A stretch of 64,000 bases of DNA, from positions 401,490 through 465,489 of the forward strand of contig NZ_KI911558.1 of NCBI RefSeq assembly GCF_000515235.1, given 5' to 3'. Below the pieces are notes generated by a model, which saw nothing but the letters and a program-made list of their open reading frames with translations, did not search any database and was not told where the DNA came from. Positions 4,101-59,980 of the stretch are shown piece after piece. Numbering within the stretch: position 1 is the first letter of the stretch; every line of letters starts with the position of its first letter. The DNA is from Synechococcus sp. CC9616. Lineage in GTDB: Bacteria; Cyanobacteriota; Cyanobacteriia; PCC-6307; Cyanobiaceae. The position numbers and the translations under genes are program-made.

Positions 4101-4709
4101 TCATTTGTTTCCGGCATTGCTTGCCTTTATCAGAAAACGTCTGAAGGTGAGGTTGATGCGTGATGTTGAAATTTTTCGACGGGTCGGTACGCCATGCATC
4201 CAGGCCTGCTGACACCCTGGATGCATGATCAGAAGATCACCATCGTTCAAATGCAACGTGTGTTTTTCTTTTGCTTCTTGTTTGAGGCGTAGGCAAAAAT
4301 CCCTGCTGGCGCCAAGTGAAAGTGAGGCGATCGGTTCCGCCTGGTTGATCTCGGGCTCGTCGTCGGCATGCCAACCCATGCGGTCGTCACCGCTGCGATA
4401 CAGGTTGAGAAGGCATCCGTTGAACCTGGTCCCGCTGGCTGCGCTCACCTTCAACAGCAGAGGGATGAACCACTCTGGCCAACCCGTGCCCTGATGCACC
4501 GTGCCGCTGTAGCGGTAACTCAGTCCATCGGCCGCCAGGAACGCTGTCATTCGCGGGACTGGGTGTCGTCGCCCGTACAGCGTCACGATCGGTTGCTGCC
4601 AGTCGATCTGTTCCATCAATCGGATCCGCCACCATCTGGCTTCATCGGCTGGCAACCACGACATCTGAAGGGTCCATGGTTGCCCCCCTGATTGAGCAGA
4701 CTGTGTCAC
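4101..4709 (-). CDS. alkB: AlkB-family alpha-ketoglutarate-dependent dioxygenase
   Basis: This family removes alkyl groups from DNA bases by Fe(II)/2-oxoglutarate oxidation. The 202-residue product shows the family landmarks: PRMTAFL, the NxY-type LLNLYRSGDDRMGWHADDE segment holding the HxD iron ligands, SLGASRDF, a later HGVP holding the distal His, and RINLTFR with the 2OG-binding Arg. The length fits short bacterial AlkB homologues (ABH2/3-like). It starts 17 bp from, and divergent to, the SGNH hydrolase gene. Confidence 0.9.
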   Translation of the reverse strand: MTQSAQSGGQPWTLQMSWLPADEARWWRIRLMEQIDWQQPIVTLYGRRHPVPRMTAFLAADGLSYRYSGTVHQGTGWPEWFIPLLLKVSAASGTRFNGCLLNLYRSGDDRMGWHADDEPEINQAEPIASLSLGASRDFCLRLKQEAKEKHTLHLNDGDLLIMHPGCQQAWMHGVPTRRKISTSRINLTFRRFLIKASNAGNK

Positions 4710-4726
4710 GACGCAATTGATCTGCT

Positions 4727-5608
4727 GTGACGTCCACTCTCGTGATTCTTGGGGCGAGCCTTATGGATGCCGGCAATATTGCTGGTCTGGCCCCCGTGAT
4801 CGGACGCGAGCCTTTTGTTGACTCGATCTATGACAAAGGGGGAAACGTTCGCGCCTCCGACGGCTCTGTGCTGGGTGAGCATTTCGTGCGGCGTATGGGT
4901 GGCGACCCGATGAATCGTCAGCTGTTTGATGTGCTCTCGATTGAGCCTGCGCAATCCGTCGATGTTCACAACTACGCCCATGGTGGAGCTCAGTCTGATG
5001 GAGAACCCAGTCAGTCGTTGTTTGGTCTCCGCGTGGGGATTGGTTTGGCCGATCAAGTTCAGTCCATGCAACAACGTGCTGACTTCTATCAATCGCATTC
5101 TGATGTGGATGTTTTGATTTCCTCCGGCGGCAATGATCTTCTCAACACCCTTGGTGACCTGAAACCTTTTGAACGGGTTTTATCAACAGAGAAAAACAAT
5201 GACGACAGACGTTTCATGCGTTCCATTAGTCGTCCCATCAGCCGCAACATCATCCGTGCCGTTGATGACATCACAGGTCTCGTTGATGAGATGGTTGTGA
5301 TTGGTACGCTGCCAATCAGCGAGACACCGCGGGCCCGCAGACGTGCTTCAAAAGTGAAAGGCGCACGACAGGAGGATGTTCTTGAACTGCTCGACGCCAT
5401 CAGTCTTGATCTTCAACGACGGCTCGGCAAAGCCTTTGATTCACGCCCTGACGTGGCCTTGCTCGATGGCCGCTCCCTTTGGACGCAGTTGGACAATCCC
5501 GTTTTTTTGGATGATGAACATCCGAACAGTCGCACAAGCAAGCGATTCGCGACCCTTGCCGTTCCACTTGCCGCTGAGCAGTTGCAGAGCTTTGGATTCG
5601 ATGCATGA
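4727..5608 (+). CDS. SGNH/GDSL-family hydrolase
   Basis: GASLMDAGN at the N-terminus corresponds to block I (GDSxxDxGN) with the nucleophilic Ser. SSGGNDLL is block III with the GxND oxyanion Asn. DDEHPNSR near the C-terminus gives the DxxH dyad of block V. Together these support a GDSL lipase/esterase fold of normal length (293 aa). The usual GDS is GAS here, so the Asp is replaced. No signal peptide is obvious. The substrate (lipid or other ester) cannot be told. Confidence 0.8.
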   Translation: MTSTLVILGASLMDAGNIAGLAPVIGREPFVDSIYDKGGNVRASDGSVLGEHFVRRMGGDPMNRQLFDVLSIEPAQSVDVHNYAHGGAQSDGEPSQSLFGLRVGIGLADQVQSMQQRADFYQSHSDVDVLISSGGNDLLNTLGDLKPFERVLSTEKNNDDRRFMRSISRPISRNIIRAVDDITGLVDEMVVIGTLPISETPRARRRASKVKGARQEDVLELLDAISLDLQRRLGKAFDSRPDVALLDGRSLWTQLDNPVFLDDEHPNSRTSKRFATLAVPLAAEQLQSFGFDA

Positions 5609-46666: not shown

Positions 46667-46711
46667 TCGGGGAGACAGGATTCGAACCTGCGGCATCTTG
46701 CTCCCAAAGCA
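46667..46711. other. Left attachment site: partial tRNA-Pro copy
   Basis: 45 bases match 59907-59951 with one difference (C for T at 46683). They cover the tRNA 3' end, T arm, variable region and anticodon arm, and the match ends abruptly after CCCAAAGCA. The 5' half of the tRNA is missing, so this is not a functional gene. Confidence 0.85.
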
Positions 46712-46816
46712 GCATGGCTCTCTAGTGCTGGCCTAGGTTTCTCTAGTCAGTGACTCAGTTCTAGCAGTGTTTTTGCGTTATCAGATGTCAGGAGGTGTCA
46801 GCAGGTGCTTGACAGC

Positions 46817-46835
46817 TTTCGCACGCCTTTCGCAC
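46817..46835. promoter_or_regulatory. Candidate left integrase arm sites
   Basis: Two direct copies of TTTCGCAC at 46817-46824 and 46828-46835, 11 bp apart, between the partial tRNA and the integrase gene. The same octamer appears near the right end. Tyrosine integrases bind such arm sites in addition to the core. Confidence 0.5.
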
Positions 46836-46864
46836 AATGGGCATAGCAATATGCCTCTGCTGAA

Positions 46865-48040
46865 TTGCCACGCGTTAGCCAGACAGAACCCTGGATCAAG
46901 CCCTTCAGGAAGCAGATCGCAGAGACCTGCGGTGAGAGTTGGTACGTCCGCAACAACCGTGGTCGGATTCGACTGGAGGTTCGTGGTGCTGGGACCGTTT
47001 CACTTCCCTACGAATGGACAGCGCGTGGATCAGGACTTGCCTTGCCCCGCATCCTGCAGATCTTTAAGCGGTGGAACGGTGGTCAGGTCACCCTCGCTGT
47101 GGCCGCACAGAACTCCGATACCTCCAGCAGCCATCAGCAACTGAATTTCGGCCAGTTGATTGATAAATACCGAGCGTTTGTGCCTAACGCTGGCGACACC
47201 ACCTGGAAGACGTTTTATCTGCCGGTGCTGCGCAATTGCGCCAAAGCATTTGAGGGCCGACCACCGGTGGACGGTGAAGCCTTAGCGATGCAATGCCTTG
47301 CGCAATGGGAACAGGGTTCACGGATGCGGCAGACCAGCCGTCAGAAGCTTTATGGCTTCCTGAACTGGGCGGTGCAACGTGGATACCTCAAGCCCATTTA
47401 CAGCCCTCCTGCCTCGCTTCCTGAGGTGCTGAAAGCCAAGCGCATTGGCTATCCCCTCAGCGATGTTCAAATTCTGCAGTTGCTCGACAACCTGCCTGAG
47501 GGTGAGGTGCATGACCGCTGGCGGTTCGCCATTCAGTTGTGTGCCGTCTATGGACTGCGCCCCGAGGAATTGCGGCACCTGCGGATTAAGGACGGGGCAA
47601 GTGGAACAGAACTCTGGACCATTTATCAGAAGTCGATGGGCGGCACCAAGGGAGCCAAGACAGAGCCACGGCGACTCCACCCGCTGCTGCTGCGTGATGC
47701 CGATGGTTCCGCCATTGATTGGAAGCTCCAGGCACGGTTACAGGTGGGCGAGAAACTGCCGCCGTTGAACCGTGAGGGTGACGGGGGGCAGGCTTTGAAT
47801 CAATACCTGCGCAGACGCAAGGTTTGGATAGCGCTGCGGGATGAAGCCGACCATCAGGGTGAACAGCTCACGCCGTATTCCTTTCGTCATCGCTATGCCA
47901 AGCAATCTCATGCGGCACCACGGCTCGCCGTTGCAGAGATCGCTGAGGCAATGGGCCACACCATCGAGGTGCATTTAAAGAGCTACGCAAGGTTCAAGCC
48001 TGATGCGACAGCTGCTAACTACGCGGCTGTGAATGTCTGA
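46865..48040 (+). CDS. int: Tyrosine recombinase (integrase)
   Basis: The C-terminal catalytic domain shows YGLRPEELRHLRI (first Arg), TPYSFRHRYAKQSH (His-x-x-Arg region) and MGHTIEVHLKSYARF (GH and the nucleophilic Tyr). An N-terminal part suits arm and core DNA binding. 391 aa. No ATG is available before the conserved region; TTG at 46865 is used. Adjacent to the left att site, the expected place for the element's own integrase, directed inward. Confidence 0.93.
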   Translation: MPRVSQTEPWIKPFRKQIAETCGESWYVRNNRGRIRLEVRGAGTVSLPYEWTARGSGLALPRILQIFKRWNGGQVTLAVAAQNSDTSSSHQQLNFGQLIDKYRAFVPNAGDTTWKTFYLPVLRNCAKAFEGRPPVDGEALAMQCLAQWEQGSRMRQTSRQKLYGFLNWAVQRGYLKPIYSPPASLPEVLKAKRIGYPLSDVQILQLLDNLPEGEVHDRWRFAIQLCAVYGLRPEELRHLRIKDGASGTELWTIYQKSMGGTKGAKTEPRRLHPLLLRDADGSAIDWKLQARLQVGEKLPPLNREGDGGQALNQYLRRRKVWIALRDEADHQGEQLTPYSFRHRYAKQSHAAPRLAVAEIAEAMGHTIEVHLKSYARFKPDATAANYAAVNV

Positions 48041-48135
48041 TTACTTCTGCGAGTAAAGCCAGAGCTGATAAACGGCGTCTGATCCATAGCCCTCATCAAC
48101 CAGCTGCCTGCACGCCTGACGGGCAGCCCCCCTTT

Positions 48136-48912
48136 TTATTGGCCGAACAAGGACGGATGCAGCTTCCGATATGCAGCATGCCGACGGTTAGATCGGCTGA
48201 TGTCTTTTTTCTTGAAAGCAGTGACTGCCTCCTCTGTAACCAGCCCTAAGGCTTCAGCAATCCGCTTACGGTGCTGATTGAAAACAGGGGAGGAGCTGCT
48301 GACGAAGTACGGGGTCATGATCGAGTTCCAAATGTCACCCATCAGCCAGTTGTCCTTCAGGATCCAGATCGGCTTGGTATGGGCGCAGAACTCATAAAGC
48401 CGCTCGATAAATGCGTTGAATTCAGATAGGACGCCCTTGCTCTTCGTGTTGATGATTTCCGATGAGCCACCCCAGCCCCAGACCTTGATAGGGACTTCTT
48501 TGGGTTGAAATTTGAGGCGTAGCCAACTGATTGCCGCAGCTTCAAAAGCATCTGCCTGATCACCAGATACTGGGACCGAGGCAAGAACCTTTTTGTAAGC
48601 GACTGGATCGCGCTCCAGCGGGTTGGAGTTGAAGGTCAAGCCGACTTTGTGGACCCGGTGTCTCTCGACTTCAGCCTCCACCAGATACAGGTATGCGCGA
48701 CCGCGACGTGCCTTCGCCATGCGCCTTTTGTATCGCTGGTCATTAACAAAGCACGGGACCTGCAGGAAATCGATCTGAAGCCGTAATAACTCCACGGCCT
48801 CATCAGGCGTCCAGAACGTGAAATCGGGTGAGGCCTTCATTCGATCAGCTTGCTTTAGCTGGGTTGGTGGCACATCCCCCATCCGGGTGAATGTCCCCGT
48901 TGCGGGGGACAT
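48136..48912 (-). CDS. GIY-YIG/T5orf172-like protein
   Basis: GRAYLYLVEAEVERHRVHKVGLTFNSNPLERDP has the spacing of a GIY-YIG-type core (YLYLVE ... KVGLT), followed by an A-E-A-A helix. The catalytic Arg and Glu are not certain. 258 aa from ATG 48912, which overlaps the upstream stop by ATGA. Possibly a nuclease carried by the element. The 95 bp between it and the integrase hold a short coding-like tail (LVDEGYGSDAVYQLWLYSQK, minus strand) with no start. Confidence 0.6.
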   Translation of the reverse strand: MSPATGTFTRMGDVPPTQLKQADRMKASPDFTFWTPDEAVELLRLQIDFLQVPCFVNDQRYKRRMAKARRGRAYLYLVEAEVERHRVHKVGLTFNSNPLERDPVAYKKVLASVPVSGDQADAFEAAAISWLRLKFQPKEVPIKVWGWGGSSEIINTKSKGVLSEFNAFIERLYEFCAHTKPIWILKDNWLMGDIWNSIMTPYFVSSSSPVFNQHRKRIAEALGLVTEEAVTAFKKKDISRSNRRHAAYRKLHPSLFGQ

Positions 48913-49136
48913 TATTCCGCCTCGCAATAACCGCCAAAATCGCACCGGTATTCATTCCCGTCTTGGTCGCGGATGTAATTCGACCGGTAAGGGTGATCGT
49001 GATAATCGCCGTGGTTGTAGCTGCTGCCAGGACCGTAAAGTGATGGCCCTGTGCGCTGCAGGTAATCGTCATAGGCATTGGCAGGAACGCCAAAGCAACA
49101 AGTAACAACAGCGATGGAAGCGAAAAAAAGTTTCAT
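48912..49136 (-). CDS. Small secreted Tyr/Gly-rich protein
   Basis: Signal peptide MKLFFASIAVVTCCFGVPANA, then a Tyr/Gly/His-rich mature part (LYGPGSSYNHGDYHDHPYRS) ending with RCDFGGYC. Translationally coupled (ATGA) to the GIY-YIG-like gene. Function unknown. Confidence 0.65.
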   Translation of the reverse strand: MKLFFASIAVVTCCFGVPANAYDDYLQRTGPSLYGPGSSYNHGDYHDHPYRSNYIRDQDGNEYRCDFGGYCEAE

Positions 49137-49373
49137 GATTCAGAAAGGATTTCTCCAGTAGTGGTATTGCGTTGGTTTACAAGGAAGGCACGGACCAGCC
49201 GGACGAGAGCGATCCGGAGCGCAGCCACCATTCCGATGCGCTCGGTTACTGCGCACTGGGAGCGATGAAGCCGCTGATTCCAAAGAAACTGAAAACCAGG
49301 TCCAGTTCAACGATCACTATCTGGTGATGCAGAAGTCAGGCGGGTGGAAGCAGTGCCCAATACATATTGGGAG

Positions 49374-49829
49374 TCACGACTGAGTTTTTTTCTCCTGAGT
49401 GCTCACAATCAGGGCCGTAACCCCGACGATCTGCAGCTGCCAAAGCATCGGCCCGACGAACAGACCGACGATTGTCCAGGCCAACACGTTGCGCCCGAAC
49501 CATTCGAACGCCATTGGAGCGACGAACGCTCCCAGAGGGCCGCCGGAAACGAGGCCAACCCAGCCCTTGCCGTCCTGCTGCTTCTGGTACTCCTCAGCGC
49601 CGAGATTGCAAAGGCCGTTTGCCTTGCTCTGGAAGTCATTACTGGCACCCGTTACGGCCCGTGCTTGCGCTGCGACTTCTAGACACTGAAGCTCGAACCG
49701 TTCGCCGTAGCTCATGCGCTCTGAGCCACCCCAATAACTTTTGGCCTCGACCGATGCAGGGAAGAACGCAGCTGCACCCAGAAGACCGCCAACAGCAGAA
49801 CCGATAACAACACTTCCGAAATTTTTCAT
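49374..49829 (-). CDS. Membrane protein of the element
   Basis: A 151-residue product with a signal or first helix at residues ~8-28 and two C-terminal helices (around FGRNVLAWTIVGLFVGPML and LQIVGVTALIV). Between them is a soluble part with Cys (LQCLEVAA, GLCNLGA). Starts 3 bp after the upstream stop, so it is in an operon with 49833-50162. Confidence 0.62.
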   Translation of the reverse strand: MKNFGSVVIGSAVGGLLGAAAFFPASVEAKSYWGGSERMSYGERFELQCLEVAAQARAVTGASNDFQSKANGLCNLGAEEYQKQQDGKGWVGLVSGGPLGAFVAPMAFEWFGRNVLAWTIVGLFVGPMLWQLQIVGVTALIVSTQEKKTQS

Positions 49830-49832
49830 TGA

Positions 49833-50162
49833 TCAGACCTCCGCTTCTGTTGGTTTTTCGCTCAGCCAATACACGCCTTTGAACTTCTTTTCAGCCAGCC
49901 GCTGAAACGCTGACATTTCAATGTGGATGGTGGCTTTGAACTCAACGTTCAACTCACCATCAGCGGCAGTTCTGACTGTCGTGACCATCTCTCGTCCGTC
50001 GAGATCTTCCGGACTGATCGAAAAATGCCCTGGAGCGCATCTGGCCATGGGTGGTTTGCAACTGCATTCACCATTGCTGAAAGAAGTTGTGAGTACATCC
50101 CTCGATCGATTGATTGTTCTGCCCAATTTCAGGGGGTCGCATCCCCCATCCGAGGGATTCAT
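49833..50162 (-). CDS. Hypothetical protein of the element
   Basis: A 109-residue product. The N-terminal third has clustered Cys (GECSCKPPMARCAPG); the rest is alpha/beta (ELNVEFKATIHIEMSAFQRLAEKKF). Its ATG overlaps the stop of the upstream frame 50159-50419. Function unknown. Confidence 0.55.
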   Translation of the reverse strand: MNPSDGGCDPLKLGRTINRSRDVLTTSFSNGECSCKPPMARCAPGHFSISPEDLDGREMVTTVRTAADGELNVEFKATIHIEMSAFQRLAEKKFKGVYWLSEKPTEAEV

Positions 50163-50419
50163 GCCAATGCCTCCAGCTCCAGCTGCTGGGCCGTCTGACC
50201 CAGCCCCAGAACAGATGCTCTGTCATCAGAAATATGGCTCAGTTGAGGGATGCGCCCACCTTTGGGGTCCAAGGATGGTGGTAATGAGGTCAAAAATTGA
50301 AAAATGAATCTATTCACCAAAGGACTGACAACTGGTATCGCTGTCGGACTTGGGGCAGCTCTTGCAATCCCCGCCATACGACAGGCTTGAGACAACAATT
50401 CAATTTGTTTCGGAGTCAT
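50159..50419 (-). CDS. Possible 86-residue protein, coupled upstream ORF
   Basis: Starts MTPKQIELLSQACRMAGIAR and ends with an ATGA overlap to the next gene, which is the main evidence. It runs antisense to the short plus-strand frame 50304-50390; both are unlikely to be real together. Confidence 0.35.
   Translation of the reverse strand: MTPKQIELLSQACRMAGIARAAPSPTAIPVVSPLVNRFIFQFLTSLPPSLDPKGGRIPQLSHISDDRASVLGLGQTAQQLELEALA
50304..50390 (+). CDS. Possible 28-residue membrane peptide
   Basis: ATG 50304 to TGA: starts MNLFTKGLTTGIAVGLGAAL and ends AIPAIRQA. The Gly/Ala-rich helix after a Thr-Lys-Gly start resembles the beginning of DUF5132-type membrane proteins. Antisense to 50159-50419. Confidence 0.3.
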   Translation: MNLFTKGLTTGIAVGLGAALAIPAIRQA

Positions 50420-50487
50420 CTTTTGCGGGGATTCAGTGCCCCTAACGACCCTCTAATTTTACTTGCTACAAATCATCGACTTCTCAG

Positions 50488-50512
50488 TAAAAACCCCGCC
50501 ATTGCTGACAAG
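50488..50512 (-). terminator. Repeated terminator hairpin, copy 5
   Basis: TAAAAACCCCGCCATTGCTG with a partly decayed right arm (ACAAGG), then GCTAAGTGTGAATCAAGCCA as at copy 3. Sits just past the stop of the pentapeptide gene 50525-51316. Confidence 0.7.
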
Positions 50513-50524
50513 GCTAAGTGTGAA

Positions 50525-51316
50525 TCAAGCCAGGTTTAGTTGATCTGCTGTGCAGGGTGATTGCAGTAATAGTTGCTCGTCTGTACAAGGTTTAAGAAAG
50601 GCGTGCTTTGTTCCGTCTGGGCAAATTGAATCGATTTCCCAATCAACGGCATTAAGCTTTGCGTCCTTGAAGTTTGCGCCAGTTAGATTAACTTGATTTA
50701 GTTTGGCGCCATGTAAATTAGCACCTGTTAGGTTTGCACCAGTCAGATTCGTTTTAACCATTATTGAATCCCTCAAATTTGCCCCCACAAGTTTCGCGTC
50801 AGTAAAATTTCCATAAACAAGATTTGTGCCTTGGAACTGCATCCCACTTAAATCTTCACCACGACAGTCAGGAAAACAAGGGGGTCTTGGATATATTCTA
50901 TTTCTAAAATCAATGGACACTGAATCAATAAATAAGGAGATGTCACTCATTTCCATGTTTTTAAGACCTGTAATCTTGTCTTTACTTGAATCGCTAAGTG
51001 GTTTGACACCAAACACCATCTTCCCTGATTCCATTTTTGGCTTGAGCATCTCAAATGTGAACAACTCTCTCTGGTCTTCAACCTCAACCGTTGCTTGAGC
51101 ATTGGGTTCACTACTGGCGAATAACTTATCCCATTTGCGAAGCAGCTTCTGCGGCTTCCAGGTGCCCTCGACACGGTCAGGCCGGTCGGTGAACCAATCA
51201 ATCTCATCAACGCCCTTCAGCACCATCTGATAGCTGCCGTTCTTGCGTTGCTTGATGTGACCTGAGTCGGCCAGGGCACCGAACAGAAGGGATGAACCAG
51301 CAGGAGGTTTCGCCAC
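50525..51316 (-). CDS. Pentapeptide-repeat protein
   Basis: 263 aa. Residues 1-60 share MAKPP, IKQRK(D/N)GSY and following positions with the broken gene at 45468-46240. The middle has DKITGLKNM; residues ~150-215 are pentapeptide repeats (NLTGANLTGANLHGAKLNQV), which form a right-handed beta helix. The C-terminus is SICPDGTKHAFL and Cys-containing. No signal peptide. Bracketed by hairpin copies 5 and 6. Function unknown. Confidence 0.8.
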   Translation of the reverse strand: MAKPPAGSSLLFGALADSGHIKQRKNGSYQMVLKGVDEIDWFTDRPDRVEGTWKPQKLLRKWDKLFASSEPNAQATVEVEDQRELFTFEMLKPKMESGKMVFGVKPLSDSSKDKITGLKNMEMSDISLFIDSVSIDFRNRIYPRPPCFPDCRGEDLSGMQFQGTNLVYGNFTDAKLVGANLRDSIMVKTNLTGANLTGANLHGAKLNQVNLTGANFKDAKLNAVDWEIDSICPDGTKHAFLKPCTDEQLLLQSPCTADQLNLA

Positions 51317-51358
51317 GGGTGAGATTAAGTTGCCCTACGGATAGCAAGGAATTCACTG

Positions 51359-51383
51359 AAAAACCCCGCCATTGCTGACGGGG
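51359..51383 (-). terminator. Repeated terminator hairpin, copy 6
   Basis: AAAAACCCCGCCATTGCTG then ACGGGG, a perfect stem; followed by TGGTGTGTGTGAG as at copy 4. Upstream of the pentapeptide gene start. Confidence 0.78.
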
Positions 51384-51503
51384 TGGTGTGTGTGAGGCTT
51401 GTCGGGTAATAGATGTAACTTTGCCCTACCACCTTAGAGTAGATAGTCGAAAGCGAGAAATAGTTGAACTAAAGTCGGGAGCCTCCACGGTGTGACCAGA
51501 TAG

Positions 51504-51830
51504 ATGGTGTTTCTATTTTTTCTACCAGCCCTCGGAGTGGCTTTAGGCCTTTTCATTTTTGCTCTTATTTGGAGTATTAAGTCTCTCACTCGATCCTCTA
51601 AGGTTGGCGGCACTGCCGCAGTCATCACCCATGTATTACTAGGGAGCGCTATTTTGGTGATTTCTTTTGACATATATGGCGACTATTTCTACCACTGGAG
51701 TTGCAGCAAGGGTTTCATCGGTTACTGTTATTTAGAAGCCTCTATGATGTTTATCTTGATGGGACTTCTTCCTTGTGGATTCCCAATCACTGGTCACATC
51801 CTTAGGTCGGTATGGCGCAGTAAGCATTAG
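51504..51830 (+). CDS. Small polytopic membrane protein
   Basis: A 108-residue product with three or four hydrophobic segments (around LFFLPALGVALGLFIFALI, AAVITHVLLGSAILVISF and ASMMFILMGLLPCGFPI) and Cys between them (SCSKGFIGYCY). Unknown function; a cargo gene between hairpins 6 and 7. Confidence 0.62.
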   Translation: MVFLFFLPALGVALGLFIFALIWSIKSLTRSSKVGGTAAVITHVLLGSAILVISFDIYGDYFYHWSCSKGFIGYCYLEASMMFILMGLLPCGFPITGHILRSVWRSKH

Positions 51831-51977
51831 CGTGATATCAGAGGGACCAGCTACGCCGCCTCTTTCTTCAGGGGGGATCAAAAGAGCAATTCGCTTGAAG
51901 AGGTCAGGGTCGTTGGCTCGTAATGCTGCGACAAGTTGTTCAAGCAGGCAGAGGGCAATGAGTGTGTCGAAGGACAT
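51732..51977 (-). CDS. Small ORF with Leu-rich start, paralogue of 43084-43173
   Basis: MSFDTLIALCLLEQLVAALR then NDPDLFKRIALL: the start is shared with the short frame at 43084-43173. The C-terminal half overlaps the 3' end of the divergent membrane gene and may be read-through of a shorter real protein. Function unknown. Confidence 0.45.
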   Translation of the reverse strand: MSFDTLIALCLLEQLVAALRANDPDLFKRIALLIPPEERGGVAGPSDITLMLTAPYRPKDVTSDWESTRKKSHQDKHHRGF

Positions 51978-52024
51978 TGATCAGATGTGACTGCCTGAAG
52001 TGTTCCCCGCTCTGCTCAAGTAAT

Positions 52025-52052
52025 GAAAAAACCCCGCCATTGCTGACGGGGG
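52025..52052 (-). terminator. Repeated terminator hairpin, copy 7
   Basis: AAAAAACCCCGCCATTGCTG then ACGGGG, a perfect stem, followed by GGATGCTTTGGAAGCGTTGAA (compare copy 1). About 40 bp past the stop of the second TPR gene. Confidence 0.78.
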
Positions 52053-52090
52053 GATGCTTTGGAAGCGTTGAAATCAGGCGATGCCAGATG

Positions 52091-52570
52091 TCAGCAGTGC
52101 TTTCTTACCCATTCAATCGGTTTGGTATCCCCTAGATCTACCGCTTTTTTCCAGTCTCTACAGGCGTCTTTCAGATTACCTATTAGATCTAAAGTAATGC
52201 CGCGGTTTGTGTAAGGCTGATAAAGTTCGGGATTGAGTTCAATTGCTTTTGTGTAATCATCAATAGCTCCTTGATAATCCTGTAATTCATGCTTGACAAA
52301 GCCACGATTGTAGTAGGCATAGGTAAATCGAGGATAAATCTCGATTGCCTTAGTCCAATCAGCAATAGCCCCTTCTAAGTTTCCACTTTCTGCTTTATCA
52401 ATCCCTGAATTGTACAGATCTTTAGCATTCTTATTCTGTGCATAGGCTACCTGCGCCGTCAGCAACCCTGCGCCAATTCCAACGGCAGGTGTAAGCCCAA
52501 CCAGCAACGGGCGTCCTATTGGCATGAACAGGGCTAAGGCAGCAGCAAAGGCAGTTGTGACACGAGGCAT
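52091..52570 (-). CDS. Secreted or anchored TPR protein, three repeats
   Basis: Nearly the same leader (FAAALALFMPIGRPLLVGL) and C-terminus (ACRDWKKAVDLGDTKPIEWV) as 43974-44753, but only about three TPR units instead of six. 159 aa. The difference fits loss or gain of whole repeats. Bracketed by hairpin copies 7 and 8. Confidence 0.83.
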   Translation of the reverse strand: MPRVTTAFAAALALFMPIGRPLLVGLTPAVGIGAGLLTAQVAYAQNKNAKDLYNSGIDKAESGNLEGAIADWTKAIEIYPRFTYAYYNRGFVKHELQDYQGAIDDYTKAIELNPELYQPYTNRGITLDLIGNLKDACRDWKKAVDLGDTKPIEWVRKHC

Positions 52571-52642
52571 CCTGAGGGCTGCATGGCTAGTCCATCTCTA
52601 GCCTTTATTGACGATCCCTGTCTGTATCTGATCTGCAAACAG

Positions 52643-52666
52643 AAAACCCCGCCATTGCGACGGGGG
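52643..52666 (-). terminator. Repeated terminator hairpin, copy 8
   Basis: AAAACCCCGCCATTGCGACG then GGGG, one base pair shorter in the loop. Preceded by CTGTCTGTATCTGATCTGCAA as at copy 2. It separates the TPR cassette from the terminase gene. Confidence 0.72.
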
Positions 52667-52774
52667 CTAAATGCAAAATATTGCCAGGTATTAAAGGCTG
52701 ATTTATGGGCTGAATGTCCCAGATATACCCCTTAATTCTGACAGGTCATTTTTGCCGTCCCTTTATCTATCTCT

Positions 52775-54346
52775 TCAACGTATTGGCATTGGCTTGTACG
52801 TCCGTACGCCTCCTACATATCGTCTCCGCTTCTCTTCATTGATCCACATCAGCGGATGCGCTCCACTTCGCTGTGATTGCCGATAGCTGTGCTGGCCTTG
52901 ATTAGCAGCAGTCAATACATACCTGACAGCATCAGCAGAATGGTCGGGCGCTGCTTTCTCCATATCCTCTGGATTGCGATCATCACTAATGCAATAAGGC
53001 AATGTCGCCCACAAGCTTTCACAACGCTCTGAAATGAATAGACCAGGCTGTTCACTACCCGCTTGCCACAACAAACTCTTCATCAGTTGCCACCCCACAG
53101 CCCTTGAACTCTTAGGGCTGCCAGTGACCTGCCATCCGTACTTCTTAAATTCAGTGCTCAGCGTCACAGGATCGCTATGACCGCCAAAGCCAAGCTGCGC
53201 AGTAACTGCTGAATCCATAATTACCCTGCGGGGCGGAATCACAAAATCTGTGAACCCGTTCCGCATATAAAGCTTCTTCACTCGCTCCACAAACTGCGGT
53301 GCAGTAAGTGATCGATCTCCCCTATTCCATTCCTTTGATCCGTCTGGCTGAATCGAGCAGATGTATTCCTCATCAACGCAGACCCAACTACCCCTAGCGA
53401 TATGACGCTCTCCAAATACCATTGGCTCTTGGATCTGACACATCAACACGACGCAGGCAGGGCTGGCCGTGCCCCAGTCACCACCGATCCAGCACCAATG
53501 TGCCTTGGTCTTTTCAGTAAATGCTCCGCTCTTATCCGGATACCACGGGATCTGAAAATCACGGGGCAGCATGTTGCGATCAAGTGATAGGGCTGAACCA
53601 AAGAATCCAGCCGTTACTTGTCCCCATTCACCCAGCACCTCCGCCGCAATCTTGCTCTCATCCCCGAAGCAACTAGCCCGTAGCTCCTGCTCATACTGGT
53701 CAGGACTAAAGAGATAAGGATTGTCCCGCAGAGTTGATTTCACCCATACCGCAGGCTGTGCTCCAAAAAACTCACAATTAAAAATCCGGTTTGGCATCGC
53801 TTTTGTAACGATGTAATCCCGAATCCACCAGCTGCCAGGCCCTAAAGGGTTAGCCGTCGCAATGAACTTTGGCACCACAGTTGGGTCCGTCGTCCGCATT
53901 GATGACCTAGCCCGCAACACAACCTGCGGGTCGCCTTCCTGCCCCAGCTCATCCCAGAAGATATGGCTCAGATCCTCACCCTGGATCTTGTTAAACGCAT
54001 CATTGGCATCCATATGAATCAGCCTGATCGTCCCCCCATTACTCAGCTTCCATTGCCGCTTCGCCTTGAAATACTTTGACCCTGGCATCAACGTCGGCAC
54101 CTGCTGATACAACAGATCCTCAAGCTTCGATAATCCAGCTAGATCACGTCTGATCAGTACCGCATTAAACGCCTCACCACTGATCAGGGCAAAATATCCA
54201 ATCAGCCAGATCAGCATGATTGACTTGCCACCGCCCCGACCACCAGCAAGGATCAAAGTATTCAGCTGATCAACCGATTGCACCAGGCCTGCCACCCTCC
54301 GCTGCCAGGGCGACAGTTGAATCGTTCGCGGTGCAGTATCAGCCAA
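52775..54346 (-). CDS. terL: Phage-type terminase large subunit
   Basis: The DNA-packaging motor ATPase and nuclease. Walker A is AGGRGGGKS at residues 34-42 and Walker B is IFWDE at 129-133. ATANPLGPG is the coupling motif. The nuclease domain starts at WIGGDWGTASP and includes VIMDSA and HSADAVRYVL with acidic residues in the expected places. 523 aa, full length. No procapsid or portal gene follows, which suggests packaging into a helper phage capsid. Confidence 0.93.
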   Translation of the reverse strand: MADTAPRTIQLSPWQRRVAGLVQSVDQLNTLILAGGRGGGKSIMLIWLIGYFALISGEAFNAVLIRRDLAGLSKLEDLLYQQVPTLMPGSKYFKAKRQWKLSNGGTIRLIHMDANDAFNKIQGEDLSHIFWDELGQEGDPQVVLRARSSMRTTDPTVVPKFIATANPLGPGSWWIRDYIVTKAMPNRIFNCEFFGAQPAVWVKSTLRDNPYLFSPDQYEQELRASCFGDESKIAAEVLGEWGQVTAGFFGSALSLDRNMLPRDFQIPWYPDKSGAFTEKTKAHWCWIGGDWGTASPACVVLMCQIQEPMVFGERHIARGSWVCVDEEYICSIQPDGSKEWNRGDRSLTAPQFVERVKKLYMRNGFTDFVIPPRRVIMDSAVTAQLGFGGHSDPVTLSTEFKKYGWQVTGSPKSSRAVGWQLMKSLLWQAGSEQPGLFISERCESLWATLPYCISDDRNPEDMEKAAPDHSADAVRYVLTAANQGQHSYRQSQRSGAHPLMWINEEKRRRYVGGVRTYKPMPIR

Positions 54347-54477
54347 TTAATAACAACATGCTGCATATATTCTGGCAGATTGAAATAACCTGACTAGGAA
54401 CCCGCTGGCTGGCTGCTGAATTTTTGATATAGTCAATCTGACGGCATCGATCGTCATTCACAACGCCTTTGAGCCAC

Positions 54478-54840
54478 ATGATCTTCGCGACCTCTGCGTT
54501 GCAGCAAGCTATTGATGCTGCAGACCTTTCTGATGGACAGCGCCATTGGTTGCGCTCTACGCAGTTGTTGCAACGCGGCACTGCGTTTGATGGTGCCATC
54601 GCTGCTGGTCTGTCTCCTGACGATGCACCGGACAAAAGCAACCCGGTGAAAGCCTTATCTGGGCGATGGAATCTGAACCTTGGCAAAGCATGTCATCAGA
54701 TTGCAGATGAACTTGGCTGGACCAAACAGGACAAGCGGTTCTGGATTGATCTGATGGTGACGTTCGAGGACGAGGAGTACAAAATCGATGATCAAGTCAT
54801 CTGGGTGCTGCGCCCTCAGTGGGTCAACTTGCATATCTGA
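54478..54840 (+). CDS. Hypothetical protein between the terminase genes
   Basis: A 120-residue product from ATG 54478 (MIFATSALQQAIDAADL). Helical, with ALSGRWNLNLGKACHQIADELGWTKQDKRFW and a beta end VIWVLRPQWVNLHI. It is on the opposite strand from the terminase genes and other replication genes, so has its own promoter. Function unknown. Confidence 0.65.
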   Translation: MIFATSALQQAIDAADLSDGQRHWLRSTQLLQRGTAFDGAIAAGLSPDDAPDKSNPVKALSGRWNLNLGKACHQIADELGWTKQDKRFWIDLMVTFEDEEYKIDDQVIWVLRPQWVNLHI

Positions 54841-55102
54841 ATTGACTGCTGACTGACTGCAAGGGTGTCAGCAATCCGGACACCTTTGATGACCTTGCCT
54901 CCCCGGAACCCGGGTTCCCGCTAGTAGCGGGAACCATCACTGGCACATACCCCCGTGAGATAGGTGATTTGGACACGGTCCAGTATTGAACTGGACACAG
55001 AACACTGCTCAGTCTCATTGAATTAGACAGCTGAGACGGGACTATGACTAGGCCGACTGGCACACCGTGGCCTGCGTACCTGTGACAGCCACAGGGCAGC
55101 AA

Positions 55103-55630
55103 TCACACGTCCAGCGTCTGTTGATTCCACTGCTCAGGGCTCAACTTCCCGCTGGTGTCACCTTGCTGCAGGAAGTCACGAACAACATTGACTTGCACCG
55201 CCTGGACACCGGCATCAGGGCTGAGCTGGTTGTTGAGCTGACGGGCACGGCGATCGTGATGAGTCGATAGCGCTCGCAACAGCGCTGGATCAACGCCTTC
55301 TGTCTTGGTGACCTTCACCTGCTCATGCCCATTCGGCAGGCGGATCACCTCACGCACAACACGACCACTGCGACGTTGCTCTTGGATCTCCTCGCGCATC
55401 TCACGTTCGCTGAGATTCCAGCGTTCCTCGCTGAGTGCCATCCGCTCTTCCATCGACAGCTTGTTAATGGGATGAGCCTTGGCGACCGACTTAATCATCT
55501 GCGACACACGCGCCTGCGTGATCCCAAGCTCATTGGCAATATCCCATTGCGTCAACCCGGCAATATATAACTCCCAGGCACGATTTGCGGTTTCTTGACT
55601 CTTCTTTTGAACGTTGATTGATGCAGCCAC
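55103..55630 (-). CDS. Small-terminase-like HTH protein
   Basis: Residues ~12-45 are a helix-turn-helix (AWELYIAGLTQWDIANELGITQARVSQMIK), followed by a charged coiled-coil (LSEERWNLSEREMREEIQEQ) and a flexible tail. This is the layout of phage small terminases (DNA-recognition HTH plus oligomerisation helices). It lies upstream of terL on the same strand. It could instead be a transcription regulator. Confidence 0.65.
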   Translation of the reverse strand: MAASINVQKKSQETANRAWELYIAGLTQWDIANELGITQARVSQMIKSVAKAHPINKLSMEERMALSEERWNLSEREMREEIQEQRRSGRVVREVIRLPNGHEQVKVTKTEGVDPALLRALSTHHDRRARQLNNQLSPDAGVQAVQVNVVRDFLQQGDTSGKLSPEQWNQQTLDV

Positions 55631-55639
55631 GTTAATACT

Positions 55640-55934
55640 TACTCTGAACCCTTGAAAAATTATAAGACGTTATAAGTAATCGAAGCAAAATCCCCCCATA
55701 TCGCTGCGTATGGGTAGCTGCTCCATGGTCCATACCCCCCACCCCCCTTTGTGCGTATATGAGCTAATTACCCTCTTTTTAATCATCAATACTTTTAAGG
55801 GGGGTATCCCTTGGACATAGGACCAACCCTTTTCAGCACTGAGAAAACCGCCTTGGACCACCTATGGACCGGTCCAGGACCACGTTGATTAGGTCCACGA
55901 GCTTGGTCCATCGGATCTACGCTTTGGTCCACCT
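55640..55934. other. Candidate replication origin with GGTCCA iterons
   Basis: Seven exact GGTCCA/TGGACC copies in this ~300-bp non-coding gap: 55727, then six in 55854-55931 (start points 55854, 55865, 55871, 55892, 55905, 55926), with near-copies around 55812-55825 and 55877. Next to them is an AT-rich part with TTATAAG-ACG-TTATAAG near 55660. Iterons plus an AT-rich segment beside a VapE-type helicase gene fit an origin; this is an inference. Confidence 0.55.
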
Positions 55935-57203
55935 TCAGAGGCGCTTCCATATGCGCGGGCGAGCACCTCCGTGTTGTCCCGTTCTTGGTCTTTTCAGCCC
56001 CCATCCAGCGCGTGTCATGGCGTCTTTGATGAGCATCTGATTCTTCTGCGTGGTCATGCCCGTGTCGCGCACAGCTTCCAGCAGTTCATTGGGATTAATT
56101 ATTTCTGCCCCTGCGTGTTCTTGGAGGTATCTGGCGACCGGACCCTCCAGGATGTTGTCGGCGGTGTAATCACGATTCAGGTCATCGTTTTCTACCTCGT
56201 CGGCATCGCCCAGGAACGTCTCAAAGCCGTTGAAATAATCAGCCGTTGCCTGCGCCCAGATCGCATCACGCAGAGCAGCAAGGGCCTCGGTATCGATCTT
56301 GGATGGAACGTCGCAGGGAATGATCCACCAACGGCGCTCGCCTGTGTCGTCGTAGAGGAAGTCACCACGGTTGCAAGAGCCGACAAAGATTGAAGGGCGC
56401 GGGCAAGGTGCTGCCTTAGTGGCATATGGCGGGCGGAAGTGGTCGCACTCAGTCGAGAGGAAATTCTTGAGGTGTCCGGCGTGAGTGAGTGAGGTGATGC
56501 CATCTAGCTCTCCTAGTTCCAACCCCCAGTTGGCGTGCAGCGTGAGCAAGGCGTCTTTATCGCCAATCTTTCCACGGAAGATGGCGAAGAATGGGCCGAA
56601 CAGGACACGCCAGAACGATGTTTTCTTAATGCCCTGATTGCCCTTCAGGACCAGACAGGTGTCGTGCTGACAACCGGGCTCGTAAGCGCGCTTGACGGCA
56701 GCCACAAGGGTTTTATGGAGCATGCGGTCATAGATGGTCTGCGGCCCTTCGTTATCAGCGGGGCGAAGGAACGTTGATGCCAGACGTGTGATGTCGACGC
56801 GGTCGCCGTAACGGATGGTGTCTAGGTAATTCCTGACGGGATGGAAGGCGTCTTCCTGCGCCGCTGCCGCTAGGGCATCTCTGGCATCGCGTTTGTTGAC
56901 GTCATATCCCCGCTGTTGGATTGGGATGTAGATGCACTCTTGTTCGTGTGAAGAGAGGGTGATGCCATTGATCTCCACGTCTTGTGACATGAGGTTCCAG
57001 CGAATTAACCCGTCATGGATCGGGTCTTGCATGACGGTGGTGAACATCGTTGTGAGATCACCAGCGCGGATTGCAGTGCGCTTGCCCTTTTCGTTGATGC
57101 CAGAGGGGAGAGTGCTAGCGAGCAGATGAACAGGTTTATTGGGGGTATTGAGCTGATGCCCGTTCGGGGAGAAGGCTGAGGCAATTTCTGTTGGCCAATC
57201 CAT
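55935..57203 (-). CDS. VapE-type helicase/primase-associated ATPase
   Basis: GNQGIKKTS is a P-loop; LELGELD is the Walker B; VGSCNRGDFLYDDTGERRWW is the signature of virulence-associated E proteins, which replicate phage satellites. About 422 aa from ATG 57203, whose ATGA overlaps the stop of the upstream zinc-finger gene. The N-terminal part shows no clear primase motif; that activity is probably in the upstream gene. Confidence 0.88.
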   Translation of the reverse strand: MDWPTEIASAFSPNGHQLNTPNKPVHLLASTLPSGINEKGKRTAIRAGDLTTMFTTVMQDPIHDGLIRWNLMSQDVEINGITLSSHEQECIYIPIQQRGYDVNKRDARDALAAAAQEDAFHPVRNYLDTIRYGDRVDITRLASTFLRPADNEGPQTIYDRMLHKTLVAAVKRAYEPGCQHDTCLVLKGNQGIKKTSFWRVLFGPFFAIFRGKIGDKDALLTLHANWGLELGELDGITSLTHAGHLKNFLSTECDHFRPPYATKAAPCPRPSIFVGSCNRGDFLYDDTGERRWWIIPCDVPSKIDTEALAALRDAIWAQATADYFNGFETFLGDADEVENDDLNRDYTADNILEGPVARYLQEHAGAEIINPNELLEAVRDTGMTTQKNQMLIKDAMTRAGWGLKRPRTGQHGGARPRIWKRL

Positions 57204-57805
57204 CAGAGACCCTCCGCCATGGCACGAACAGCCGCGGGGCAAGGAGTGCCGAGGTTGTTTTGTTGGAACTGGCGCAGATCCTCGACTTGATAGGCGATGG
57301 ATTTGATCTGAGCTTCAACGCGAAGGCGATGCAGCTGTGCGAGATCTTCGTGATCCCGCCAGATCGTTTTGAGGTGAGGTTTGAGGGCTGCTGCTTTGAC
57401 CTGAGCGTCTGTTATGGCTACGCAGGCGGAATGCAATTCGTCAGGCGTTGCCGTGTAGAAGTCAGGGGCATCCCATGCAGCGTCAAAGGCGTTGTGGAAC
57501 TGATCGAGGATGTGAGCCCATTGAGAGCGTTTGGTTTGGCGTGAGAGAAGTTCTTGCGCAGTGTTGGGGGTGGCCGGCTTCGGCCACCGATCCCGTTCAC
57601 GGTCTGGCTTGAAGACAGCAGCTGAACCGCTGAATCCACCGTTGTGGTGGATGAATGCCCATTGCTGCCCCGCGATGGTGAGGGTGTCACCAGGGCGCAT
57701 GTCCGTGCCGGTGTGACAAAGGATGGTTGTGTCCGACCACCGGCAATCTGCGTCTTTCGTCCTGCTGCATACGGGGCAGGGGTGATTGCGTCCGGAAGTT
57801 TTCAC
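57203..57805 (-). CDS. Zinc-finger primase-like protein
   Basis: The N-terminus GRNHPCPVCSRTKDADCRW then LCHTG is a CHC2/primase-type zinc ribbon, as in phage and satellite primases. The remainder (~150 residues) is helical without a TOPRIM core, so it may be only the DNA-binding part of a split primase working with the VapE-type ATPase. GTG at 57805 overlaps the previous stop (GTGA). 200 aa. Confidence 0.7.
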   Translation of the reverse strand: MKTSGRNHPCPVCSRTKDADCRWSDTTILCHTGTDMRPGDTLTIAGQQWAFIHHNGGFSGSAAVFKPDRERDRWPKPATPNTAQELLSRQTKRSQWAHILDQFHNAFDAAWDAPDFYTATPDELHSACVAITDAQVKAAALKPHLKTIWRDHEDLAQLHRLRVEAQIKSIAYQVEDLRQFQQNNLGTPCPAAVRAMAEGL

Positions 57806-58050
57806 TCTCCCGCCTCCCAAATATCAATCTGTTGGGTGAAAGTTGTGTCGCGTTGCTTGGCGATTCGTGCGATGGCGCACATCAATGCCGCTAGCTGTTG
57901 ATCTGCTTTTACGTCTGCCTGAAAGTCGTGTTCTGGCGGGACAGGCAGCGGCTGGGCGTAATGCGGGGCAGAAGCCAAGCGTCGTGCAGCGGCTTCTGTC
58001 ATTGATTGGACTTTGTCGGAGGAAAGCCGACCTTTAGTAGAGTTGTTCAT
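57802..58050 (-). CDS. Small helical protein of the replication operon
   Basis: An 82-residue product starting MNNSTKGRLSSDKVQ, with a helical C-terminal half (ADQQLAALMCAIARIAKQRD). Overlaps the zinc-finger gene by GTGA. No known family. Confidence 0.6.
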   Translation of the reverse strand: MNNSTKGRLSSDKVQSMTEAAARRLASAPHYAQPLPVPPEHDFQADVKADQQLAALMCAIARIAKQRDTTFTQQIDIWEAGE

Positions 58051-58093
58051 GTGAAAGCTTGTTTTCCTGAGGCGGTGTGGTGACCGCCTTTTT

Positions 58094-58306
58094 TTATGGG
58101 GCGACGAAGGCGCTCTGGCCGCGTTTTTCCATGTATTCAGCGATTGCGTGCCGGATCACAGTTGACTGGCTGACGCGATGCTCATGGGCAAACTCTTCAA
58201 CACTGGCTTGCATCGGGATTGTTGCTTTAAAGCCAATGAAGAGGCGACGTGCTGGGCCGTTTTGAGTTTCGTGTTTCGAGAACTCTTTCGGGTTCACGGA
58301 AGTCAT
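58094..58306 (-). CDS. Ribbon-helix-helix (CopG-like) regulator
   Basis: From ATG 58306: a polar start, RRLFIGFKATIPMQASVEEF and VSQSTVIRHAIAEYMEKRG, the strand-helix-helix of the CopG/Arc family. About 70 aa. Likely a transcriptional repressor or copy-control protein of the element. A frame from 58369 adds a tail that does not look coding. Confidence 0.7.
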   Translation of the reverse strand: MTSVNPKEFSKHETQNGPARRLFIGFKATIPMQASVEEFAHEHRVSQSTVIRHAIAEYMEKRGQSAFVAP

Positions 58307-58457
58307 AAGAGAATTGAATAAATAAAGACTAGAGGACAAATGAGTGCCGTCTAGGTGCCAGAAATCCACTGCCTATGCCTCCTGATAGCTGATAACAACT
58401 GGTGACATCTAGTGACAAAGATTTAACTATTTTTTGGGTGATTTTACCTACCCGTTA

Positions 58458-58664
58458 CTAACTTTTTTGAGAAAGTTTTGCGAGGTATTGATCCAGGGCA
58501 GTGCCGTATTCCTGCGCCTTCTGGAAGCAGTCATCAGCGAGATTGTTTTGCTGGTGATGCCCCCAGTACGCGGCTCTGAGCGATTCCCAGTGCTCCCCGG
58601 TTGAGAGCACAGAGGCTGTGTCTTCTTTGGATGCCATGACGACGTTGCGGATTGGATTAGCCAT
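58458..58664 (-). CDS. Small hypothetical protein of the element
   Basis: A 68-residue helical product. ATG 58664 shares its A with the upstream stop (TAATG), so translation is coupled. Ends with a Lys/Gln-rich tail. Function unknown. Confidence 0.55.
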   Translation of the reverse strand: MANPIRNVVMASKEDTASVLSTGEHWESLRAAYWGHHQQNNLADDCFQKAQEYGTALDQYLAKLSQKS

Positions 58665-58933
58665 TAGTTCTTCCTTGCATTGCCATTAGGGAACATCACG
58701 CGAGCGCCATTAGTCAGTGCCGTTTCCAGCGCGGCTTCGGCACCAGGGCGACCATCTAGCCAGTCATTCATGAGTTGATTCACTTCCTGCTCAGTGGAGC
58801 CAGCAAGGAACAACATCATTCGGGCGTTGGCCTTTGCCTGGTCTCCGCCGTCGCTTGTTTCGGCGGGCTCCTGAATGGTTGCCATGACCCATTTCGCAAA
58901 GCCTTGATGGCTCAAAAGAATGCGATCAGCCAT
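58664..58933 (-). CDS. Small hypothetical protein of the element
   Basis: An 89-residue product, acidic and helical (KANARMMLFLAGSTEQEVNQ). Overlaps the 35-residue ORF upstream by 8 bp and the next gene by one base. Function unknown. Confidence 0.58.
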   Translation of the reverse strand: MADRILLSHQGFAKWVMATIQEPAETSDGGDQAKANARMMLFLAGSTEQEVNQLMNDWLDGRPGAEAALETALTNGARVMFPNGNARKN

Positions 58934-59033
58934 CGGTGCCCTCCGATTGGTGGAAATGACGCCAAGCCTGCGGATGCAGCAGGCTCGTCCCGGCCATCAC
59001 GACAGCAACGGTGCAAAGGATTGAATCGGTCAT
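58926..59033 (-). CDS. 35-residue hydrophobic peptide in the coupled operon
   Basis: ATG 59033 overlaps the stop of the AlpA-like gene (ATGA), and the stop lies inside the start of the next gene. The product begins MTDSILCTVAVVMAGTSLL, probably a short membrane helix. Support comes from the overlaps on both sides. Confidence 0.5.
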   Translation of the reverse strand: MTDSILCTVAVVMAGTSLLHPQAWRHFHQSEGTDG

Positions 59034-59344
59034 GAGCCCTGCACCTCACTAATGAGTTGATCCATGCCGTCTTCGCCGTAAACCTCAATGGCAGCGTTGC
59101 GAGCTTTCTTCAGGTCTTCACGGCGCTGCAGTTCTGCAGCCACCATTTCCTTGGTGCGCTTCGCCAGTGATTTACGGATTGCCGGGATGTTGTAAACAAC
59201 AGGACCACCAGCAGTACCAGTGGCAAAGATGAAGTGATCACCAGGCGTGAGCCTGCCGTCACGACGCATTAAACGAAGGGTGTTGCGTGCAATCGCCAGA
59301 AGCTCTGCAGCCTCGGGCTCATGCACCCATTCGGGCGTATTCAT
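59030..59344 (-). CDS. AlpA/excisionase-like HTH protein
   Basis: EPEAAELLAIARNTLRLMRRDGRLTPGDHFIFA is a MerR/excisionase-type winged helix (usually VSRxTIxRWxxxGxxP). The C-terminal half is a charged helix. 104 aa. Excisionase-like proteins control integrase direction or operon expression in such elements. ATGA coupling to the next ORF. Confidence 0.72.
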   Translation of the reverse strand: MNTPEWVHEPEAAELLAIARNTLRLMRRDGRLTPGDHFIFATGTAGGPVVYNIPAIRKSLAKRTKEMVAAELQRREDLKKARNAAIEVYGEDGMDQLISEVQGS

Positions 59345-59376
59345 TAGGAGGAAGTCGGAGGTTTACTCCGCGTCCC

Positions 59377-59646
59377 TCAGTTGCTCTGACTTTCTGGCAG
59401 CCAGCAACGCGTTGCACGTTGAAGCTGTGCCCAGTTATTCCGTTGCTCACACTTGCGGCGCTTGACCACGGAGGCCAGTGCCTCTTTAGGGCTCATGCCA
59501 TGCGACTCATCAATGCGCTGAGCGTTGTCGGCAACAGCCTGACGAGAGGCATCAGCCTTGGGCTGACGGGCGTCTGCAAGTTGAGTTGACGAGATGAGGT
59601 TGCCGCGATGATGCAGCTTCCTGACTCGCTCGGTGGCGGAAGTCAT
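59377..59646 (-). CDS. Small hypothetical protein near the right end
   Basis: An 89-residue product; Lys/Arg and Gln/Ala-rich, with VADNAQRIDESHGMSPKEAL and a basic KRRKCEQRNNWAQLQRATR. Could bind nucleic acid. First gene of the leftward chain from the tRNA-proximal end. Confidence 0.5.
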   Translation of the reverse strand: MTSATERVRKLHHRGNLISSTQLADARQPKADASRQAVADNAQRIDESHGMSPKEALASVVKRRKCEQRNNWAQLQRATRCWLPESQSN

Positions 59647-59827
59647 CGACTGAGGTTCTGCGGTTTCCTCCCCGTCAGATCCAGGCGTTTCACGTCAGCT
59701 CGGGGAAAGCCGCTTCACCCCCACGGGAGAAGGTTTGACGTGTCCGACCTCTGAATCTGTTGTTGAGTCAATGCTGTTACGCAGGCGAAATGCTGTCAAC
59801 AGGTACCAACGGCTATCAACAAAAGTC

Positions 59828-59876
59828 GTGCGAAAGGCCAATAAAAAACCCCGATGCTTTCGCACCGGGTTCGCAC
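59828..59876. promoter_or_regulatory. Candidate right integrase arm sites
   Basis: GTGCGAAA at 59828-59835 (inverted), TTTCGCAC at 59858-59865 and a near-copy GTTCGCAC at 59869-59876. The octamer is that found at 46817 and 46828. The distance from the tRNA edge is 32-80 bp. Confidence 0.5.
59843..59868 (-). terminator. Terminator-like hairpin after tRNA-Pro
   Basis: Read leftward: CCCGGTGC-GAAA-GCATCGGGG with one mismatch, then six T. About 40 bp beyond the 3' end of tRNA-Pro, in position to end its transcript. Confidence 0.6.
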
Positions 59877-59907
59877 AACCGATTTGGGAAATCGCTCAGA
59901 TTGCAGT

Positions 59908-59980
59908 CGGGGAGACAGGATTTGAACCTGCGGCATCTTGCTCCCAAAGCAAGCGCGCTACCAAACTGCGCCACTCCCCG
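59908..59980 (-). tRNA. tRNA-Pro (anticodon UGG)
   Basis: The 73-base cloverleaf reads 5' CGGGGAGTGGCGCAG ... 3' CTCCCCG. Acceptor stem CGGGGAG/CTCCCCG has seven pairs, D arm GCGC/GCGC, anticodon arm CTTGC-TTTGGGA-GCAAG with TGG anticodon, and T arm CAGG-TTCAAAT-CCTG. No CCA is encoded. The 3' half is repeated at 46667-46711. Confidence 0.95.

Follow-up and report, generated by a model that had tools for sequence, protein, structure and literature searches.

Introduction

The origins of phage-inducible chromosomal islands (PICIs) lie immediately 3' of rep and always comprise two iteron sets around an AT-rich region; they drive plasmid replication, and plasmids are maintained less well once the origin is deleted (PMC6092414). 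In the Staphylococcus aureus pathogenicity islands (SaPIs), Rep exploits its C-terminal domain to recognise iterons downstream of its own gene (PMC7581432, citing Ubeda 2007). Here we compare these systems, through their published descriptions, with a 64,000-nucleotide stretch of Synechococcus sp. CC9616 (contig NZ_KI911558.1, positions 401,490 to 465,489; hereafter the window), in which an integrated 13.3-kb element carries a cluster of short repeats beside a gene for a VapE-type initiator helicase. The genome is complete (2.65 Mb), and the relatives used for comparison include Synechococcus and Cyanobium records. We conclude that the cluster is very likely the replication origin of the element, functioning in the manner of a SaPI/PICI origin. 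The computed basis for this consists of the repeats themselves, the way they flank an AT-rich stretch on two sides, their linkage to vapE rather than to the terminase genes, the recurrence of the arrangement in the family, and the match of the initiator to the fold of SaPI PriRep1.

A cluster of iterons at the 3' end of vapE

The relevant features, numbered from the first letter of the window, are as follows.

55935..57242, minus strand: VapE-type initiator helicase, 435 aa (PF05272, 3.5e-57)
55727, 55854, 55865, 55871, 55892, 55905 and 55926: the seven exact copies of GGTCCA/TGGACC, spanning 55727-55931
55854..55931: vapE-proximal iteron set, with six GGTCCA/TGGACC in 78 bp and one TGGTCCT at 55876-55882
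55819..55825, minus strand: near-match iteron TGGTCCT, lying between the AT-rich stretch and vapE
about 55748..55798: AT-rich stretch between both iteron sets, candidate melting site, with 30-bp windows of up to 77% AT
55735..55747, plus strand: C6-A-C6 tract bordering the AT-rich stretch on one side, opposite a G6 tract at 55799-55804
55719..55732: distal iteron set, made up of TGGTCCA at 55726-55732 and, with one mismatch, TGCTCCA

The initial annotation, made from the letters alone, had described seven exact copies of the hexamer, six of them within 78 bp and immediately 3' of a VapE-type gene, as a candidate satellite origin that chance would hardly produce. All seven positions were confirmed, and the cluster begins 3 bp past the vapE stop codon. 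Read in the direction of vapE, six iterons are followed 29 bp on by the near-match, then by the AT-rich stretch of about 50 bp edged by G6 and C6, and finally by one exact and one near iteron, the iteron core being the near-palindrome TGGWCCA. The layout thus resembles that of the SaPI/PICI origins, directly 3' of the initiator gene and with two iteron sets around an AT-rich stretch, the distal set of the window being small.

GGTCCA occurs 28 times in the whole window, which is below the 34.8 expected; it is therefore no generally frequent word there, and outside the cluster no 220 bp of the window hold more than two copies. Given a background of 0.07 per 220 bp, the Poisson probability of at least seven is about 2e-12, uncorrected for the choice of word. 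In dinucleotide shuffles of the local sequence no hexamer reached seven copies (0/500), and local composition therefore does not produce the cluster. With up to one mismatch allowed, the 220 bp that start at 55711 contain 10 sites for TGGTCCA, as compared to at most three elsewhere in the window. Genome-wide, pairs of GGTCCA up to 30 bp apart form isolated spots, with chained overlapping pairs at the cluster alone; equal density elsewhere in the window or the genome, which would have spoken against an origin, was accordingly not found. The recurrence of the longer form TTGGTCCAYC fared less well, as two copies do lie in the cluster but the genome holds 10, and the 10-mer by itself is nothing special. 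A repeat search with default seeds reported no repeat family, which the iteron length of only 6-7 bp explains.

The predicted initiator resembles SaPI PriRep1

VapE displays a PF05272 domain with Walker A (K207) and Walker B motifs. An AlphaFold2 model built on 41 aligned relatives has a mean predicted local distance difference test score of 89 and an AAA+/SF3-like core, and its C-terminal residues 366-435 fold into three helices and two strands (H-H-H-E-E), which we interpret as a putative winged helix. The top match in the PDB was SaPI PriRep1 with double-stranded DNA (7pds, 'Similar to D. nodosus vapE'; Foldseek E about 1e-18), aligned with a VIA-align Z of 27.9 over 374 residues at a root-mean-square deviation of 3.8, while the runner-up structures, NrS-1, the SaPI5 primase-helicase and poxvirus D5, reached Z of at most 14.5. 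The two proteins share a common fold over residues 48-435 and a core sequence match of 7.7e-19; however, identity in the structural alignment is 17% and the DNA-reading domain has diverged, so that another target word is to be expected. Both sequence and predicted fold point to a homologue of SaPI Rep with a C-terminal winged-helix-like domain.

The repeats accompany vapE rather than the terminase genes

Downstream of the cluster lie two genes of the packaging type, the first preceded by a short repeat.

55660..55676, minus strand: TTATAAG direct repeat, leader region of the TerS-like gene
55103..55630, minus strand: helix-turn-helix (HTH) protein upstream of TerL, TerS-like
52775..54346, minus strand: terminase large subunit, TerL (phrog_2, 4.2e-23; TIGR01547, 3.4e-11, under the cut-off of that model)

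The product of 55103..55630 is probably the small terminase subunit; its gene also adjoins TerL in related elements of two other genomes (G029 and G009). The cluster is situated directly upstream of it, and TerS proteins of known phages bind repeated sites. The repeats could consequently be TerS-binding sites, i.e. a cos or pac packaging site upstream of terS in the style of lambda-like phages. We therefore set the relatives of VapE and those of the terminase side by side.

For VapE, 128 non-redundant loci were compared, with 3000 shuffles for the word of each locus. A VapE of 50% identity in Synechococcus sp. AG-670-B23 (L010/L101, one contig) has four GGTCCA at the same place (0/3000 shuffles), and one of 35% identity in Cyanobium N5-Cardenillas (L046/L102) has seven TGGTCC at the same place (0/3000 shuffles). 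The cluster is hence retained beside related VapE genes, as expected if, as proposed, the iterons of a satellite origin adjoin its rep gene. The other 125 loci have no more than two GGTCCA or one TGGTCC beside vapE; at the equivalent spot, the more remote VapE genes are followed by iterons with other words. The gene after vapE in L010 has no match to the TerS-like gene of the window. As a separate observation, L010 repeats the plan of the window, with a core of C-tract, AT-rich stretch and G-tract.

On the terminase side, relatives with a TerS-like protein of 60-70% and a TerL of 70-86% identity were found in G029 (two elements) and G009 (one). Their recognition helices are nearly invariant (GITQARVSQ, GITQGRVSQ and GVTQARVSQ), yet GGTCCA is absent upstream of the TerS relatives in both genomes, and the adjacent replication genes are AAA_25-type or degraded, not VapE. 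One G029 element (L077) has instead six CGAACA between its replication region and terS (5160-5290; 0/500 shuffles), and the other (L076, 7080-7290) has AGTTTCGGAA repeats between the replication region and terS, whereas no repeats were detected at the corresponding spot in G009. The L077 copy appears decayed, with a stop in TerL and a truncated replication gene. Viral contigs were also scanned for close relatives, by the TerS-like protein and by VapE alone, and nothing was found.

The repeats thus differ beside related TerS/TerL and persist with VapE, so they follow the replication gene and not packaging. Read from these sequences, a replication module carrying its own repeats has been swapped against a stable terminase module, and this speaks most strongly against a packaging site. 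A packaging site is accordingly very improbable: the repeats are not conserved with TerS proteins of 60-70% identity and near-identical recognition helices, the cluster stays with VapE in L010 and L046, where no such TerS was found, and the iterons of the wider family, described below, track the 3' end of vapE.

The initial annotation had also pointed to an AT-rich stretch with a TTATAAG direct repeat adjacent to the cluster. The repeat lies outside the iterons, in a leader of the TerS-like gene that is conserved among related elements, and was ruled out as the DNA unwinding element; judged by this position it is probably a promoter or leader, not origin.

In AG-670-B23 several VapE genes occur with different words, GGTCCA at 291-432 and a GGTTGA-type word near 18-19.5 kb on the L083 contig, and GCCTCA-type words on other contigs. 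Co-resident VapE elements hence have different origin words.

Iterons recur after VapE genes across phyla

Family loci were collected by similarity to the VapE of the window, and the result covers its relatives rather than all PF05272 proteins. In the 3' flank, defined as a 700-bp interval around the point where VapE homology ends at 126 non-redundant loci, six or more copies of one hexamer were present in 72 of 126 cases, as compared to 2 of 123 5' flanks and 0 of 378 shuffles. Counting hexamers overlooks degenerate iterons and selects words after the fact, but shuffles and 5' flanks were handled identically. Along the VapE loci, maximum hexamer counts in 300-bp windows are elevated around the vapE 3' end only. 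The words vary from lineage to lineage (GCCTCA, GTCACA, GCCACA, AGGTTG, GACTAC, AACTCA, GGGACA and many more), and the commonest spacing of neighbouring copies is 9 bp. In most cases the copies fall into two groups with an AT-rich gap in between. Among the 73 loci with an inter-iteron gap of at least 40 bp, the gap has a median of 82 bp and is AT-richer than its flanks in 57 (Wilcoxon 4e-7), and opposite orientation is favoured for the words left and right of it (41 vs 22, p=0.02). The loci span Cyanobacteria, Bacillota, Bacteroidota, Pseudomonadota, viral contigs and the complete cyanophage S-LBS1.

The same loci bear on a further explanation, in which the repeats are an operator, with repressor or activator sites controlling terS-terL. 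The cluster does occupy the upstream region of terS, and repeated short words are frequent in operators. However, its sites are scattered across roughly 200 bp, with an AT-rich core between them, and the identical layout follows VapE genes whatever gene comes next. At several loci the iterons even fall within vapE itself, in the 3' part of its reading frame: in L015, L020, L021, L025, L026, L053, L059, L072 and L084 the frame extends about 140-230 codons beyond VapE homology, through iterons and AT-rich gap, and in such cases the origin may be placed inside the vapE coding sequence. Moreover, the conserved leader of terS is distinct from the cluster, and no sigma-70-type promoter was found in 55500-56100. 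We consider a pure operator highly unlikely, though the cluster may have a secondary regulatory role as well.

Several family members deserve separate mention. In Synechococcus phage S-LBS1 (L191, MG271909.1), 10 CCTAAC follow right after the VapE-like primase-polymerase gene, at about 4240-4530, an array that is likely an unannotated phage origin. In cyanobacterial members the AT-rich gap is biased towards poly-purine on the vapE strand (0.589 vs 0.535 in vapE coding sequence, p=4e-4), a bias not seen in non-cyanobacterial members. Among Bacillota with VapE 70-87% identical, the aligned origins share iteron positions and the words differ (GATGCA, GTGACA, CTGATA), many copies ending in a common CAGT(A) tail. 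The VapE cores of L135, L157 and L176 are 83-87% identical and yet their words differ, as they do in L142, L145, L147, L152 and L168. The alignment gives the impression that the binding word was replaced in a concerted manner, perhaps together with a change of the winged helix.

A model for initiation and points against it

Iteron binding, melting, loading and autonomous replication are taken here from work on SaPI/PICI and SCCmec, the staphylococcal cassette chromosome mec. By this analogy, the element would excise, upon which the C-terminal winged-helix domain of VapE would bind the GGTCCA iterons. VapE would then form a ring at each side of the AT-rich stretch, melt this stretch between the iteron sets, load itself onto the single strands and unwind in both directions. 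SCCmec Cch2 is likewise a self-loading initiator helicase whose C-terminal domain binds direct repeats directly downstream of cch2, but it belongs to the D5/Primase_Cterm helicase family and has three AAGTG iterons only (PMC7581432).

In the window, GC skew switches sign close to the cluster even though the flanking genes are co-stranded, so that the skew proposed as a check agrees with an origin in the element itself. As a general mark of VapE-type origins it was dropped, as it is not present across 67 family loci, and the main argument does not rely on it. Third-position GC skew within 52775-57820 is +0.40 for TerL, +0.24 for the TerS-like gene, -0.29 for VapE and -0.34 for the next open reading frame (ORF).

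Some observations weigh against the cluster being the origin. The family loci as a whole show no GC-skew switch (32/67, p=0.23), the deepest GC-skew point is at 56269, within vapE, and the change in the element could be explained by mosaic ancestry. The distal iteron set is small, with one exact and one near site. About one third of the family loci are without clear iterons by hexamer count, and similarity of the iteron words is only loosely tied to VapE similarity: for the C-terminus the Spearman coefficient is 0.13, higher than in all 300 permutations.

Plasmid iterons also act in copy control. It is thus conceivable that VapE binds the cluster for copy-number control or incompatibility only, with the origin elsewhere in the element or supplied by a helper phage. 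However, the AT-rich stretch lies inside the cluster, and PICI origins arranged alike are required for plasmid maintenance (PMC6092414). We assign such accessory sites a minimal probability, and retain the cluster as the candidate origin.

The 13.3-kb element

The integrated island (46667-59951) is bounded by 45-bp direct repeats at tRNA-Pro, and its further features are these.

46667..46711, plus strand: att repeat of 45 bp at the integrase end, differing from the tRNA copy by one mismatch
46865..48040, plus strand: tyrosine integrase (phrog_1, 1.4e-21)
57203..57820, minus strand: ORF overlapping the vapE start, with CxxC-type cysteines near the N-terminus and no family match
59030..59344, minus strand: small HTH protein, excisionase/AlpA-like (weak)
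59907..59951, plus strand: att repeat in the 3' part of tRNA-Pro (tRNA 59906-59980, minus strand)

On the minus strand, transcription runs from the HTH gene through small genes, the primase-like ORF, vapE, the cluster, the TerS-like gene and TerL to a TPR protein, a pentapeptide protein and unknowns. The N-terminal cysteines of 57203..57820 suggest a primase-like zinc ribbon. No capsid or tail genes were recognised among the element proteins scanned, in a search that was not exhaustive, which fits a phage satellite; the element is small and mobile and probably depends on a phage.

A specific attachment site and an integrase, as expected for a PICI, are present in the att repeats at tRNA-Pro and the tyrosine integrase. 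Further likenesses to SaPI/PICI elements are the small HTH gene, terS, the tRNA-type integration site and iterons that vary in sequence among elements. By each sequence-level feature, the replication module is a predicted PICI/SaPI-type replicon. The whole element is at most a candidate PICI, as it carries its own TerL besides the TerS-like protein; the PICI elements of PMC6092414 have either terS or no packaging gene at all. PICIs are further characterised by phage-dependent induction, by interference, by packaging into phage-like particles, by genes exclusive to them and by att sites that prophages never use. The host of the present element, a cyanobacterium, is another difference from the SaPI/PICI systems. 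Tycheposons are reportedly tRNA-integrated islands of picocyanobacteria with a tyrosine recombinase and packaging genes. They have been named beside other marine phage-satellite-like islands (PMC10803314).

Implications

The cluster represents a precise candidate origin for a phage-satellite-like cyanobacterial element; no description of an origin of this kind in cyanobacteria was found in the open-access literature searched. Origins of VapE-type elements may thereby be located simply, by inspecting the few hundred bases 3' of VapE homology. Iterons after VapE-type genes in S-LBS1 and viral contigs suggest that the layout is tied to the initiator family, not to satellites alone. A broader proposition, on which we find the balance even, is that a 3' iteron origin characterises the VapE/PriRep1 initiator family in general, in phages and satellites across bacterial phyla, and that between close relatives the words are replaced in concert at unchanged positions to give private origin addresses. 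Close relatives with equal iteron positions and different words offer material on how winged helices read DNA. If the proposition holds, a private origin address for each lineage would let co-resident elements replicate independently.
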